Shown here piece after piece: positions 13,248-46,518 of a stretch of 64,000 nucleotides of DNA. The position numbers were made by a program, and so were the translations under genes. The DNA lies in the NCBI GenBank assembly GCA_004519485.1, contig CP038128.1:186001-250000 (forward strand), written 5' to 3'. Numbering within the stretch: the stretch's first letter is position 1; each line of letters opens with the position of its first letter. The notes below the pieces were generated by a model. It searched no databases. It had not been told where the DNA came from and saw only the letters and a program-made list of their open reading frames with translations. Origin of the DNA: Nannochloropsis oceanica (Eukaryota; Sar; Eustigmatophyceae; Eustigmatales; Monodopsidaceae).

Positions 13248-15515
13248 CTAATGGTGCTGTTTCCCCTCCTTCTCCTGCTCGACCGCAACCTTCTCCTCCT
13301 TCCCTCCCCCACTCCCTCCCCCTGCCCAGTACCGTTGCAGAATCCTTGCCGTTGCCGGGACGAGTGCATGCAAGTTTGCAGCTTTCCCCGACCGAGCCAA
13401 TTTCATCTCATCCCTCACATGCGTCGCGAGCTGCTTCCCTAGCTCCACCCCCCATTGGTCGAAGGAATTGACGTGCCACACAAAACCTTGCACCGCCGTC
13501 CTGTGCTCATACAACGCCAAGAGTTGACCCATGGAGTAAGCATTCAAGCGAGGAAGTAGGAGAGAGAGGGAGGGTCGGTTCCCCTTGAAAGTCCGATGGG
13601 GAACATGCTGAGGCAAAACACCATCAGCCAGGAGCTCCGCGCTTGTCTTACCAATGGCCAAGGCATCGGGCTGCGCGAAAAAGTTGCACATCAACTCGTC
13701 GTGCGACGACAGCTCCTCCCCCACCACATGCAATGCCTTCTGGCTCTCCGCAAAGCCAATGAAGTCCACAGGGACTACTTGGCCCATGTGCAGCAACTGG
13801 AAGAACGAATGCTGGCCATTGGTGCCCGGCTCTCCAAAGTCAATCTCGCCAATTTCGTAATTGATCTCTTCTCCATCCACCGTCACATGCTTCCCATTAC
13901 TCTCCATGTCCACCTGCTGGATGTGCGCGGGGAATTTCATCATGGCTTCCGCATAGGGTATGATCGTCCGGCACTTGTATCCAAGGAAACTCATGTTCCA
14001 GACGCCCAACAACCCCATCAGCACCGGCAGATTCCTCTCAAACGGCGCCGTCAAAAAATGCCGATCCATGCTCCGGGCACCTGCCAGAAATTTCTCAAAC
14101 ACCTCATATCCGAACTTCAACGAAATTGGCAAGGCCCCGGGAGACGCACACACGCTATACCTCCCCCCAACCCAATCCCAAAACTCAAATAGCCTGTGGC
14201 TAGGGATCCCGAATTCCTCCACCAAATGCGTCGCCGACGCCGAGGCACACGCCGCCATATGCTTCGCGCAAACCTCTGGGTCTTTTCCCATGCCATCCCA
14301 CAGCCACTGACGCATCGTCCGCGCATTCAACATGGTCTCGGCGGTCACGAACGACTTGCTCACTACTATTACCAGGGTCTCCTCCGGGTCCAGCTTCTCC
14401 TGCGCCCGTGCCACGTCTACAGGATCGACGTTCGAGAGGAACCTCAATCGGAAATCACGGCATGAACTGGAGCCCTCCTCCTCCGTCTTGAACACCTCGT
14501 GGATACACGCCGGGCCCAAATAACTCCCTCCAATGCCGACTGCAACGATATTTCGGATTTTCTTCCCCGTCGCCCCGCGTATGGTCCCTGCCCTCACCCC
14601 CTCCGAAAAGGCCTTTACCTTGTCCAAGACTCCATGCACTTGCGCCACCACATCCACCCCATCAAGCACAATGCTCTCCTCCCTCCCCGCCCGTGTCGCC
14701 ATATGCAACGCCGCCCTCCCTTCCGTATGGTTGATCTTATCCCCGCGGGCCATTGCGGCTATTTTCTCTGCCACTTGCGCGCGTTTGGCCAAGTCAATTA
14801 GTAGGGCACGTGTTTCCACCGTCATTTGCTGCCGCGAATAGTCGAAATACATCCCATCATACTCCGCACACAACGCCTCCGAACGCACCGGATCTTGAAT
14901 CAGATGCCGTAGATGCAAGGCCTTAATCTCCGTGGCGTGCTTCACCAGCCGCTGCCACTCCACAGTCTGCGATGGAAGCTTGAATGAGGGCTGGGCACCT
15001 TGGGCATGCGCGCCAGGGGTAAGGACTGAAGAGGAGGCGGCCGCAACAGGCATTGGGTGGAGAGCACCGAAGGGAGAGGAGGCCGAGGCGCTGGCGGCGG
15101 AGGCAAGCTTGGAGGGAGGGATGCTGGCAGCAATGTGCGGTATGCGCAAGGAAGAGGAGGAGGAAGTTGGTGGCCGGGAGGAGGAGGGGGAGGGTGGGGG
15201 GATGTGGTGGAGAGGCTCCTCACGGAAGCCTTGGATGGGATGGTGGCCTCGATGCGGCTTTCTTGGGGGCTTGCGGTGATTTACGGACATGGCCATCCTC
15301 CGACTACTACTGCTACTACTACTACTACTGCTGCTGCCGGTGCTGGTGCTACTACTTCTACTGAAGCTTGGATTGGTGTCGCTACTTGGACTGTTGCTGC
15401 AGGGACTGCCGTGCCGAGATCCCGCGCAAGTCCACGAAGCGGCCATCAGGCCGGGGGTAAACGCGCTGGAGTGTGGGGTCGAGGAAGATGAAACCAGATG
15501 AGAAGTGAAACCCAT
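13248..15515 (-). CDS. GPI: Glucose-6-phosphate isomerase
   Basis: An intronless frame of 755 codons. It interconverts glucose-6-phosphate and fructose-6-phosphate in glycolysis and gluconeogenesis. The catalytic domain covers roughly residues 190-730 and matches the family throughout: VAVGIGGSYLGP, the VVSKSFVTAETM phosphate-binding loop, FEFWDWVGGRYSVCA, QVDMESNGKHV, GTNGQHSFFQLLHMG and the second signature FDQWGVELGKQLA. About 190 N-terminal residues are Ser/Pro/His-rich and unlike the family, so this may be an organelle presequence, or translation may begin at a later Met (for example MPVAAASSS at about residue 155). No clear signal peptide was seen, so location is undecided. The next gene upstream on the same strand also uses glucose-6-phosphate. 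Confidence 0.96.
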   Translation of the reverse strand: MGFTSHLVSSSSTPHSSAFTPGLMAASWTCAGSRHGSPCSNSPSSDTNPSFSRSSSTSTGSSSSSSSSSSSRRMAMSVNHRKPPRKPHRGHHPIQGFREEPLHHIPPPSPSSSRPPTSSSSSLRIPHIAASIPPSKLASAASASASSPFGALHPMPVAAASSSVLTPGAHAQGAQPSFKLPSQTVEWQRLVKHATEIKALHLRHLIQDPVRSEALCAEYDGMYFDYSRQQMTVETRALLIDLAKRAQVAEKIAAMARGDKINHTEGRAALHMATRAGREESIVLDGVDVVAQVHGVLDKVKAFSEGVRAGTIRGATGKKIRNIVAVGIGGSYLGPACIHEVFKTEEEGSSSCRDFRLRFLSNVDPVDVARAQEKLDPEETLVIVVSKSFVTAETMLNARTMRQWLWDGMGKDPEVCAKHMAACASASATHLVEEFGIPSHRLFEFWDWVGGRYSVCASPGALPISLKFGYEVFEKFLAGARSMDRHFLTAPFERNLPVLMGLLGVWNMSFLGYKCRTIIPYAEAMMKFPAHIQQVDMESNGKHVTVDGEEINYEIGEIDFGEPGTNGQHSFFQLLHMGQVVPVDFIGFAESQKALHVVGEELSSHDELMCNFFAQPDALAIGKTSAELLADGVLPQHVPHRTFKGNRPSLSLLLPRLNAYSMGQLLALYEHRTAVQGFVWHVNSFDQWGVELGKQLATHVRDEMKLARSGKAANLHALVPATARILQRYWAGGGSGGGKEEKVAVEQEKEGKQHH

Positions 15516-16529: not shown

Positions 16530-19241
16530 TCACTGTACCTTGAGTGCCTCCCCCAAGAGCTCGGCATATGACGCCTTGGTCGGACTGGCCCGCCGCAAGG
16601 AATCCACCCGCTCCCGGGCAGTGAGCAAAGCAAATGAAGTTGCCTGCTTCAAGCTCAGAGACTTGGTCTTACAGAGCATGGCTGCCACAAATCCTCCGAT
16701 AAACGCATCGCCCGCCCCATTCGTATTCACCTCAGCGCCGGCCTGCAATGGATAAGGAGGCAACAGAGCCTCCTGCCCCGCCCATTTTGTGGCTTGCCAC
16801 GCCAACGCCTCGGATGCCTGTAACCGTTTCTCGTTACTCGTCACCTTCACATAGGCTCCACACTCCCCGAGGGTCAGGGTCACGATGGCCAGCCCTTGCG
16901 CCAACAAAGCGTCGGCCGCCTGCTGGAGGGAGGAGCGGGAGGTGGCCGCGTCGCTGATTTGGATGCCGCTATCGTTGCCACTTAGGAGTAAGTTAGCCTC
17001 TTCTTCATTGAGGTGTAGGACATCCGTCCATGGCAATGCCTCAGTCAAGATGCTCGGATCGTTGTTGCTCGTCGTCACGCCATTCAAATCCATGCTCAGC
17101 AATAATGACCGCCGCGTTGCTGAAGCTCGTGGTTTGACTGCTGCTGCTGCTCCCCCCCCTCCCCCTCCTTCTCCTTCTCCACCGTTCTCTTTCGCATTCA
17201 GCACCCCCGCGGCCTCCTTCAAAAAGTCCCGCAACGATGTACCCTGAAACTGCTTCATCAAATGGGGATATCCAAAATGCAACGCCGACACCCCCTGCAG
17301 CCCCCCGTCCTCCCGTCCCTCTCTCAATGCCTCCAGGGCCTCCGCGGGGGTAAAAGAATCATTGATGTGCAAATTGGCAAAGCAACCCCTCGCACCCGTC
17401 GTCGCCAAAATCGGCAAAACCGCCAAACTGGTGGACTGACCGTCATCACGCAACACCAACGATGTGTCCACCCCCGCCTCCTCCATGTGCCTCAACAACT
17501 CTTCGCCGTGCACATCATTCCCCACCTTCGTCAACACCTTCACAACCGACCGCCGCTTTCCCCTCCCACCTTTCCTTCCTTCCAATCCGTACATCATCTC
17601 TGCCACAGCCAACGAAGACTGCGGAGCCGAGCCCCCGGGGCAAAACGCTTGCTTCTGGAACGTCTTGATCGTTCCAAACGCCTCCCCCTCCCCCGAAGCT
17701 CCCAACAGCATCAGATCAAGACAACTCAAGCCCACGCACAACAATCCTCCTATCCACGGTTCATCATCCCCCCCTTCCATCCCTCCTCCTTCCTCCTGCG
17801 CCTGCAATGCCTTGGCCTTTGCAGCCGTAGTCGACTGCCGGGCCAGCAACATCCGCAAGGCGGGCGGCATGGCAGCACACCGCGTGCCTTCCAACACTTT
17901 CTCGAGCATATCCATCTGGTGGAAAAAACCAGGGTCCGCCCCCTTCGCTGCCCCCTCAGGGACCTTGAATAAATAAGCCGTGGCAAGAGCGGCTTGCTCG
18001 GGGGAGAGGTTTTTGCGGGCAAAGTAGTCGCACCAGACAGCTACGTCCAGCATGAGGGGGACGCATAGAATCGAGTCCATACACCGCGTGTAGGTCAGCA
18101 TGGTGTGTGGAGAGCCCAGAAACCCTAGGCTGGTGTATTCAACGATATCTCTTTTCTCGTCGCCGATGAATGGGGTGTACATCACGCGGACCTGGTGATC
18201 CACCGCATGTTCTTCCCAGCCGTCGAAGATATCGGATTTCACCCGCATTTTGGCATCCAAGGTCTTTTTGCTGGTTAAATTCAGCATGTCATTATTTCCT
18301 AAATGATTCGAAGAAGCAATCACCGTGGGCGTGAGACCTAACGCACGAATGTATTCCACCGCCGCCGTTTTGAACTTGGTCTGTCCAGCTTTGAAATCCG
18401 TTCCGAGAATGTAACATCTTCTCCCCTCCTTCCCTCCCTGCGCCTGCACCTGGTGAGCTGCTAGCTCGGCCAGGCCCGGACACAAAGTGTTTTGCGAGCC
18501 ACCGTTAACAAAGGAACAGCCCTCCAAGCAGGCGGCGACGGCGTAGAGGAGGGAAGGAGAAACTTCGGGATCGTTGACCTCGATAGCATTGAGCAAGGAG
18601 GCAGCCGAGGGGAAATCACGGAGAGTAGGACGCTCGACACTCGCTGACCATATGACTGTTATGTGCCCATGGGCAGGGATTTTATGCGTGGATCGAAAGC
18701 GTTGAATATCCGCGCGGAGGAGGGCGAGGGATTGGGCGTGTGTGGTGCTCGCGTGGTCGATAACGTGGGAGGCGGTGGCGTGTTGCGACTCTCCAATGAA
18801 AGAAGGGTCCCAGACCCCTTTTAAGATTTCCATTTTATTCAATGGCTCTCGGACTTGTCGCACCAAATCATAATCCAAGACATGGCTGGCGTACAATGCA
18901 TCCCCCAGCGGGGTTGGACGAATGTCCCACCCACCGATAGCGGCCTGGTTGGCGTCTGCCAGGGCGTAGGTCTCTTTGTACCCTCCCTTACCGCCTTTTA
19001 TGGGCAGTTGCGTAATGCATCCCAGGTAATTCGCCTTGATTTTCCCCGTGGGCCCTTCCCATTCAAGCCCTAGCTGATTTGCGCGGAGGCCGGCCAGCAT
19101 GGTCACGCCATTATTGCCTCCAAGCCCGACGATGAGGATTCCCAAGGCCGCCGGCCCTGTCATACTCGTGCCGCTGTTCGTGCTGTTGCTGTTGCCTGTA
19201 AGGCCAACTCTTTTGAGGCTGTCTTCCAGCTTGTTGAACAT
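16530..19241 (-). CDS. Fusion of inositol-3-phosphate synthase (INO1) with a pfkB-family kinase
   Basis: One uninterrupted frame of 903 residues. Residues ~25-470 are 1D-myo-inositol-3-phosphate synthase, which makes inositol 3-phosphate from glucose-6-phosphate with NAD. Markers are [14 protein letters not shown] (NAD loop), [46 protein letters not shown] and [17 protein letters not shown]. After a linker of about 50 residues, residues ~525-903 are a PfkB sugar kinase: [19 protein letters not shown] (signature-1 region), [33 protein letters not shown] and [14 protein letters not shown], whose GAGD holds the catalytic Asp. A plausible kinase substrate is free myo-inositol, by analogy with plant inositol 3-kinase, also a PfkB protein; this is inference. 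There is no intron and no frame break at the junction, so the fusion is not a joining error within this sequence. No clear targeting peptide. The start could also be Met27. Confidence 0.93.
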
Positions 19242-44823: not shown

Positions 44824-46182
44824 TTATGTTTGGATCGGAGTCCACCCGGTATCTCCATGCTTGCTCAGACACTTACTCCTACAGTACACATACGAAAACT
44901 TGGTAAAATACATGTTCTCCTGCATCTCAAACTCCTTGTGACACCACGAGCATGTCCCCATTTCTACCTCCTTCTCTTGCTTTGGCGGCGGGGTCCACCA
45001 TGCCAGTAGATCCCGCAGATTGGCTCCATTCATTCTCTCTACATCACAACGACTGACTTCCAAGCGCTCAAAACGAGGGGAAACATTTAAGAAAAGATGA
45101 GTGTAACCGAAGCCGCCATATTTTTGTAACTTTATGCGGCAGTCGATGGAGTGAGAGAGATGCAATTGGGAAGAAAATCCTTTCCTGCAGAGCCTCGAGA
45201 GGAGACACGCCCCTTCCTCATCGGAAGGGGAGTCAACGGTTTTGAAGCCCAAGGTGGATTCAGCACATTTTTGAACAGGGGGGGAGAGAGGGTAGAAGGC
45301 GTTGCCATGAAAAGAGAAGGATACGTGGACACCATCAGTAAGGAGGGCATTATAGGCGTCTTCAAGATCTAGACGGCAAGGGCACCGACAGAAGACAATC
45401 CGCGTCTTGTCCGCACCGTATTTTATAAGAGTAGAAAATACAGCATGTATTCTCTTTCCATCGAAAGGTGCTCGACCGAAAGCGTCTTGTGTGGTGATGA
45501 AGATGGGGGCACCGCTGCTTTCCCTTGAGGCATAAGCAAGGGATTGAAGGAGAAGGTCCTCTCTCCCCTCCCTCTCTTTCTCAGGCCATATTTTGTTCAG
45601 CCCATTGAGATCCACCAGTCCGATGAACCCCGCACCGATCCGCTCACTTGTCGAGAGCAAAGCAGGGTTTTCCACTGCCTCCTCCTTTTCTGTTACTGCG
45701 TCCGTCTCCCTCGTGGCTGCGGGAGGAACAAGAGGGATACCAAATCTGAGCGTGTGAACTAAGTCTTTGCTCACGCGCTCAGGTTTGGCATCGAGTGAGA
45801 TGGGACCAGGAAGTGCGCCAGTGACAATCAGTAAATTCTTGGGCTCGAGCTTTCGAGCCAAGCTGCGCAAGGGGGTATAGTCGCGCGAGGTGGCAGTGGC
45901 AGTGTGCAAAATTAGCATGGTACTGTTTTGAGCGGTGAGGCCTGGCACCGCTAGTGCCGCCTCAAGTTCACGCTGCATCTCGTCCGCCGAGGGTAGGCGC
46001 AGATTCCATATATACTGATCGGGATGGCAGCGGACTTGACCTAAATTGGAGAGGGTCAGCTCCTCTTGCTTCAACGGTGTGGCGGAGGCAGAGGCGACGG
46101 GTGCGTCGATTACGAGGTCATTGGTACCCAGGGACAAGAGGGCGGCAGGGGGATCCAACGAGCTTGTCACCGCCCTGATCAT
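44824..46182 (-). CDS. Phosphotriesterase-fold protein without metal ligands, with C-terminal zinc finger
   Basis: An intronless 452-residue protein. Its backbone follows the phosphotriesterase-related amidohydrolases: SNLGQVRCHPDQYI (51-55 at the usual HxH site), ERIGAGFIGLVDLNG, GAPIFITTQDAF, DKTRIVFCRCPC, and the C-terminal HSIDCRIKLQKYGGFGYTHL close to the family's ICCKIRLKKYGGHGY pattern. The metal-binding residues are gone at each place I can align: HxH is HPD, the bridging Glu/Lys is Leu189, the strand-5 His is Thr, the strand-6 His is Arg266, and the LSHD Asp is Ser. Residues 411-438 form C-x2-C-x19-C-x3-C (CSWC ... YCRSKC), an FLZ-like zinc finger. It is probably a non-catalytic binding protein. 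The start is the first ATG; upstream in-frame sequence lacks one. Divergent from the MEKHLA gene. Confidence 0.78.
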   Translation of the reverse strand: MIRAVTSSLDPPAALLSLGTNDLVIDAPVASASATPLKQEELTLSNLGQVRCHPDQYIWNLRLPSADEMQRELEAALAVPGLTAQNSTMLILHTATATSRDYTPLRSLARKLEPKNLLIVTGALPGPISLDAKPERVSKDLVHTLRFGIPLVPPAATRETDAVTEKEEAVENPALLSTSERIGAGFIGLVDLNGLNKIWPEKEREGREDLLLQSLAYASRESSGAPIFITTQDAFGRAPFDGKRIHAVFSTLIKYGADKTRIVFCRCPCRLDLEDAYNALLTDGVHVSFSFHGNAFYPLSPPVQKCAESTLGFKTVDSPSDEEGACLLSRLCRKGFSSQLHLSHSIDCRIKLQKYGGFGYTHLFLNVSPRFERLEVSRCDVERMNGANLRDLLAWWTPPPKQEKEVEMGTCSWCHKEFEMQENMYFTKFSYVYCRSKCLSKHGDTGWTPIQT

Positions 46183-46518
46183 GGTGCTGTGTCCGATAGA
46201 AGCATTGATGGAGTGCGTGAGTGCTGGCTGCGCAAGCAAAAGGGGGCATAGAAGGCGTTGCGGCGGTGAAAAGTCGCTTCTTTTTTGGTCGTGTGCGAGG
46301 GGCCACACAAAACGCAAATTACCAACTTAATACCACAAGGCTCACACTGGGTTGTCAAATCCATTAAAGACACTCAAGTGATGTATAGACATTCAACTAC
46401 ACGTGTGTAGAGAGTGTACTAATGATATTCTTGGGAGCTTACCCCCCTACACATCCTCACACCTCACGGCCGCAAGCACCGTTACCATTTCTAATTGTCC
46501 TCAAATTTCCCATTAGGT
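46183..46518. promoter_or_regulatory. Short bidirectional promoter region
   Basis: Only 336 bp separate the start codons of the phosphotriesterase-like gene (-) and the MEKHLA gene (+), so the two must share promoter DNA. No defined motif was recognised. Confidence 0.5.

Follow-up and report, generated by a model that had tools for sequence, protein, structure and literature searches.

A single unbroken frame in the Nannochloropsis oceanica window (the whole 64,000-nucleotide stretch that we analysed, C3:186001-250000 of a searched genome of 29.26 Mb in 32 contigs) joins an inositol-3-phosphate synthase (INO1) to a PfkB kinase. The fusion is real and occurs in several ochrophyte lineages, and its sequence suggests that it is probably a bifunctional enzyme of ochrophyte algae, combining the synthase with a kinase of a small polyhydroxylated compound from the same hexose phosphate/inositol pool. 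The frame runs from an ATG ending at 19241 to a stop at 16530-16532, and its 903-residue product carries the two INO1 Pfam domains followed by the kinase domain (Table 1), which bears out the single-exon fusion of the original prediction and places it on the minus strand. PF07994 aligns over profile positions 1-319 of 321 (E 2e-58; 198.8 bits, cut-off 25), PF01658 over positions 1-107 of 107 (E 2.5e-24; 86 bits, cut-off 27), and PF00294 in two stretches (the better one residues 732-878, E 4.3e-20; 72.7 bits, cut-off 25.8). The INO1 half would use NAD in making inositol 3-phosphate from glucose 6-phosphate, the PfkB half would phosphorylate a hydroxyl of its acceptor at the expense of ATP, and the fusion would hold the two activities close together in a fixed ratio.

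Table 1. Features of the INO1-PfkB fusion gene and its neighbour (positions in the window)
Feature	Position	Strand	Basis
INO1-PfkB fusion gene, one frame, 903 aa	16530..19241	-	frame and Pfam
INO1 half, PF07994, residues 33-449	17895..19145	-	Pfam
INO1 catalytic domain PF01658, residues 286-390	18072..18386	-	Pfam
K331 to K335, counterparts of yeast Ino1 K369 and K373	18237..18251	-	alignment; yeast list in excerpt of PMC8287684
K363, counterpart of yeast K412	18153..18155	-	alignment
K426, counterpart of yeast K489	17964..17966	-	placed via alignment with canonical copy
Linker, residues 451-496; conservation poor beyond close relatives	17754..17891	-	alignment
PfkB kinase half, residues 497-903; low-complexity insert at about 691-712	16533..17753	-	Pfam and alignment
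G536-G537, PfkB N-terminal Gly-Gly	17631..17636	-	alignment
HFGYPH, residues 655-660, family signature; Pro for His660 in six bacterial relatives	17262..17279	-	alignment
DLNG, residues 718-721, family signature; D-x-Q-x3-R there in inositol kinases	17079..17090	-	alignment; motif spacing from excerpt of PMC5931981
NTNGAGD, residues 839-845, PfkB anion hole and catalytic Asp845	16707..16727	-	alignment
Glucose-6-phosphate isomerase (PF00342), neighbour, 1.0 kb downstream of fusion	13248..15515	-	Pfam

The architecture, whose recurrence in stramenopiles the original prediction had raised, is shared widely: both halves were present in 91 of the 159 proteins that we fetched, with INO1 ahead of the kinase in all 91 (kinase E up to 0.01; 89 proteins at the stricter E of up to 0.001), and an INO1 region of the fused type was found in 133 of the 159. 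A search with the kinase half among proteins of about 497-1580 residues matched 34, 30 of which have an INO1 Pfam domain, while the INO1 half gave 220 matches, the figures from which rest on the 120 listed. These protein searches score just the candidates sharing most words, and most matches are nameless; the six species carrying the fusion that we looked up are all Ochrophyta, and the range beyond ochrophytes is not delimited by the searches. Named carriers include Ectocarpus siliculosus, Chrysoparadoxa australica, Phaeothamnion confervicola and Triparma laevis and, on the diatom side, Epithemia, Seminavis, Nitzschia, Fistulifera and Mayamaea; the fused proteins P0083 and P0140 bear in their names the taxids of Entomoneis paludosa and a Chaetoceros. 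The closest relative (P0001, 906 residues) has the same start and domain order, with 93% identity in the INO1 part and 82% in the kinase part (identical aligned residues number 394 of 419 in the INO1 half and 330 of 377 in the kinase half), and this similarity, together with the uniform order of the 91 two-half proteins, excludes a chance joining. Transcripts ending or beginning anew between the two domains would have counted against the original prediction; transcript-derived proteins span both domains in relatives (P0017, P0096 and P0106, source mmetsp; P0083 and P0140, MMETSP names), which is evidence from those relatives and not from N. oceanica.

Seven of the eight active-site residues listed for yeast Ino1 (S323, G324, Q325, T326, K369, K373, K412 and K489, in the available excerpt of PMC8287684) are kept in the fusion, the exception being S323, which is A285 here and Ala in 83 of 89 fused rows. 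The other seven are aligned and kept in 84-87 of the 89 rows and the four catalytic lysines in 85-87, the rows that depart at the lysines being fragments (P0004, P0006, P0040) or decayed copies (P0020, P0026). Judged from the alignments, the catalytic residues of both halves are intact. The INO1 domain had been called complete, which stands for its Pfam domains and listed residues but not for its ends: the N-terminus ahead of the NAD motif is about 30 residues shorter than in yeast Ino1 (the alignment starts at residue 28 of the query and 61 of yeast), and on reading both sequences the genome's canonical INO1 has a longer stretch beyond the K489 counterpart. The NCBIfam models gave no match to the INO1 half.

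That canonical copy has introns (matches at C3:1084213-1085127 and 1083740-1083916), and the fused INO1 is the second, divergent INO1 of the genome, 40% identical to it over residues 33-341 and 37% over 354-412. In a quick tree the fused type and its stand-alone relatives form a clade of their own (SH-aLRT 99), and the canonical copy groups with human, worm and yeast INO1; the depth of this tree is unsure, with the bacterial outgroup and P0021 on very long branches and a warning from the tool.

The PfkB assignment of the second half is confirmed by its motifs as well as by Pfam. All 91 fused rows have the Gly-Gly pair, 86 show both N and E of the NXXE motif (N745, E748) and 80 have the catalytic Asp of GAGD; the rows short of these counts are gapped at the site concerned. 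When a profile of 13 kinases was compared with solved structures, ribokinase (3RY7, 65 bits) and YdjH (3H49, 63 bits) came out on top, ahead of the best adenosine kinase (42 bits) and ketohexokinase (25 bits), and with a 33-row profile YdjH headed the kinases (92 vs 79 bits). A clean grouping with ribokinase or adenosine kinase, which the original prediction had set against an inositol kinase, was not seen: ribokinase ranks first by bits, yet the kinase half scores 60.5 bits with the ribokinase model TIGR02152, below its curated cut-off of 299.65, and NCBIfam gave sub-cut-off matches only, ribokinase first. An ORF elsewhere in the genome that we take, from reading its motif, to be adenosine-kinase-like stands apart in a rough tree, on a very long branch. 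Past the kinase GAGD, a segment in P0014, P0017, P0019 and P0030 resembles an HMG-box (PF00505), an odd DNA-binding-type module to find within a metabolic kinase; a scan of eight proteins put it at or barely over the cut-off in these four and under the cut-off in P0112 and P0020, and gave no report of it for P0018 and P0021.

Whether this kinase acts on inositol can be approached through known inositol kinases. The Thermococcus myo-inositol 3-kinase MI3K_TK contacts inositol via D12, G26, Q136, R140 and D219, and TM0415 has D139, Q141 and R145 in one stretch (both in the available excerpt of PMC5931981), residue numbers from which we read the motif spacing as D-x-Q-x3-R. Three of the five MI3K_TK contacts, taken as general to PfkB, likely have counterparts in the fusion. 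The Q and R of the motif are present in none of the 86 readable fused rows (of 91): the D718-L-N-G stretch has its Asp in 86 of the 91 rows, with Asn at +2 in all 86 and Arg at +6 in none, the equivalence of D718 with the motif Asp resting on motif order and not on structure. Stand-alone kinases likewise have Asn at +2 in 19 of 19 readable rows, with Arg at +6 in two. At the level of sequence, this absence speaks against the known mode of inositol binding but does not bear on inositol as a substrate in general. The inositol kinase 4XF7 was not among 56 solved-structure matches (E up to 1e-4) from a set in which its presence is unconfirmed. Across the PfkB loci of the genome (17 exon matches), D-x-Q-x3-R was found four times and never mid-domain in a PfkB reading, lying on the opposite strand in L004 and L006 and, in L008/L010, two hits on the same place, within a short frame before the first PfkB exon; no separate inositol kinase with this motif was found among these loci. 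With the motif missing and ribokinase and YdjH as best structure matches, the inositol 3-kinase assignment of the original prediction is not supported.

The most distant matches to the kinase half, the bacterial-type P0053-P0058, are 25-27% identical to it (profile-profile probability 99.8), a level at which the substrate may have changed. His660, N720, G721 and His743 are invariant in every readable ochrophyte row and differ in the bacterial relatives, which suggests that the pocket has probably changed; Arg618 is the same in every readable ochrophyte row and is shared by all six bacterial proteins. A search from P0057 matched 164 bacterial stretches, and 80 loci were kept, with Chloroflexi, Planctomycetes, Lachnospiraceae and other records among them, and none of the 80 showed an INO1 match; these loci (L021-L100) form a widespread, uncharacterised bacterial PfkB family with the signatures HFGYPP and WAG-E. 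The INO1 half gave a match, at 32%, in one of five bacterial genomes searched, and 134 pattern matches in viral contigs included no relative.

Neighbours of the bacterial kinases were examined at 18 loci, where 78 of the 115 listed neighbour ORFs were scanned with Pfam. The 88 families found include five class II fructose-bisphosphate aldolases, five URO-D, four D-lyxose isomerases, two FGGY kinases and two mannitol dehydrogenase C-terminal domains. Among ten hand-picked neighbours, four are aldolases directly downstream of the kinase, of class II, in L067 (Lachnospiraceae), L084 (Lachnoclostridium), L088 (Anaerotignum) and L095 (Anaerolineaceae), and another is a second PfkB kinase. We read the aldolases and isomerases as a possible sugar- or ketose-kinase setting; counting against this reading, most neighbour ORFs are neither, and the aldolase adjoins the kinase in just 4 of 18 loci. 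As acceptor of the fused kinase we tentatively propose a free hexose or ketose that, once phosphorylated, would supply glucose 6-phosphate; free inositol seems an unlikely acceptor and inositol 3-phosphate an improbable one, some other compound taking up the rest.

Both halves also occur apart. A kinase match was lacking in 44 INO1-type proteins, 17 of which we treated as true stand-alone forms; the named ones are from Discostella, Amphora and Cylindrotheca, presumably all diatoms, and a C-terminal motif is common to 16 of the 17 (P0076 is without it). The other 27 mostly (23) have IGGGR or VGGGR within their last 60 residues, early-kinase sequence of the kind that unspliced gene calls would leave at the end. 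Stand-alone kinases of the same subfamily were found in the ochrophytes Trieres chinensis and Phaeomonas parva, and in a quick tree the stand-alone kinases of diatoms and Phaeomonas fall next to the fused kinases of diatoms (SH-aLRT 94). An AU test placing all fused kinases in one clade gave a borderline p of 0.046, on a quick tree leaving out the long-branched P0021, for which reason we do not regard gene fission as demonstrated; nor is the order settled by the INO1 tree. The decayed P0020 and P0026 have lost catalytic stretches of the INO1 half and retain a kinase half, indicating that the two halves can be separated.

Downstream of the fusion, on the same strand, the first large ORF met is a glucose-6-phosphate isomerase (E 9.8e-181). 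It may be a chance neighbour; as speculation, a fructokinase half, this isomerase and the INO1 half would make up a path from fructose to inositol. Elsewhere in the window, a minus-strand ORF at 44824-46317 combines a weak phosphotriesterase match (E 2.1e-6) with a C-terminal VATC treble clef domain. Two other PfkB-like loci of the genome appear, on reading their sequences, to be joined to further modules in one frame: a PfkB-like kinase precedes what we take to be a SIS sugar-isomerase-like region (L013, G000:C13:299966-301050), and a presumed pseudouridine glycosidase-like region precedes a PfkB kinase-like one (L015/L020, G000:C1:9582-10748).

Other explanations of the fusion have to be weighed against a synthase joined to a kinase of the same pool. 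The kinase could be a myo-inositol 3-kinase, so that both halves would yield inositol 3-phosphate, de novo and by salvage. We think this unlikely: fusing two parallel routes to one product would be unusual, and the missing Q and R and the absence of 4XF7 noted above stand against it, although known inositol kinases belong to the same ribokinase/PfkB family (excerpt of PMC5931981), the genome's PfkB loci offered no separate kinase with the motif, and matches to the MIOX and inositol monophosphatase families suggest that the cell both makes and uses free inositol. Of the two-entry module of the original prediction, the synthase entry has its domain in the fusion and the inositol-kinase entry is unsupported; the canonical INO1 of the genome would be a further entry to inositol phosphate. 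The role in phytate supply raised there stays conjectural: families of late steps (IPK1, IPMK) are encoded, and nothing ties them to the fusion gene. That the kinase acts on the INO1 product, turning inositol 3-phosphate into inositol bisphosphate by an activity not known for PfkB, is less probable still. Fusions usually join consecutive steps, the late-step families IPK1 and IPMK are matched in the genome where ITPK (PF05770) gave no match in a search without a positive control, and His660, His743 and Arg618 could meet a phosphate; however, we know of no PfkB enzyme with Ins(3)P kinase activity, such a contact is conjectural, and Arg618 is common to the bacterial relatives.

Comparably doubtful is an INO1 half reduced to a structural or regulatory remnant beside a kinase that alone works. 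The Ala at the S323 position, the canonical INO1, the decay in P0020 and P0026 and the HMG-box-like insert of some diatom copies agree with a remnant, whereas the four lysines persist outside the fragments and the two decayed rows, and a comparison of five relatives shows higher conservation for the INO1 half than for the kinase half. Mis-assembly, or two adjoining genes read as one, can practically be dismissed: the DNA-level view is of one genome and no point in favour of an artefact was found, while the frame is unbroken and the same protein appears in transcript sets and in genomes sequenced independently of this one.

Among the major primary producers of the sea are diatoms and brown algae, whose inositol and phosphate-store chemistry is, to our knowledge, little described. 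The retention of the fusion across ochrophyte lineages suggests a PfkB kinase working together with inositol phosphate synthesis, and the label 'inositol-3-phosphate synthase', which some sources use for fused proteins, hides half of the protein. Were the kinase to act on inositol 3-phosphate, one protein would lead from glucose 6-phosphate to inositol bisphosphate and provide ochrophytes with a lipid-independent entry to higher inositol phosphates or phytate synthesis. Searches of the open-licence PMC literature aimed at the INO1-PfkB fusion found no description of it, and the available portions of two papers treating brown-algal INO1 expression (PMC4108028, PMC6742357) mention no kinase domain; the fusion is apparently an undescribed two-enzyme protein spread through the clade.

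Compared with known INO1/MIPS enzymes (yeast 1JKF, solved 9M53), the fusion shares both Pfam domains, the NAD glycine motif, the four catalytic lysines and counterparts of yeast D320, D356 and D438, and differs in its separate divergent clade, the Ala for S323, the shorter N-terminus and the attached kinase. With the PfkB sugar kinases (ribokinase 3RY7, E. coli YdjH 3H49) it has the GG, NXXE and GAGD motifs in common, but it has its own signatures HFGYPH and DLNG, and at the position after GG, usually Asn in PfkB kinases, 80 of the 91 fused rows have Met or Gln and 11 have Asn. The bacterial family of P0053-P0058 has the FGYP signature and the same Arg and Asn (R618, N627), but is stand-alone and without DLNG. 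MI3K_TK and TM0415 are of the same kinase family and have the D-x-Q-x3-R missing from the fused kinase (excerpt of PMC5931981). The TPI-GAPDH fusion, as described in the available excerpt of PMC3527533, likewise unites two metabolic enzymes in stramenopiles, although the enzymes are other than INO1 and PfkB.
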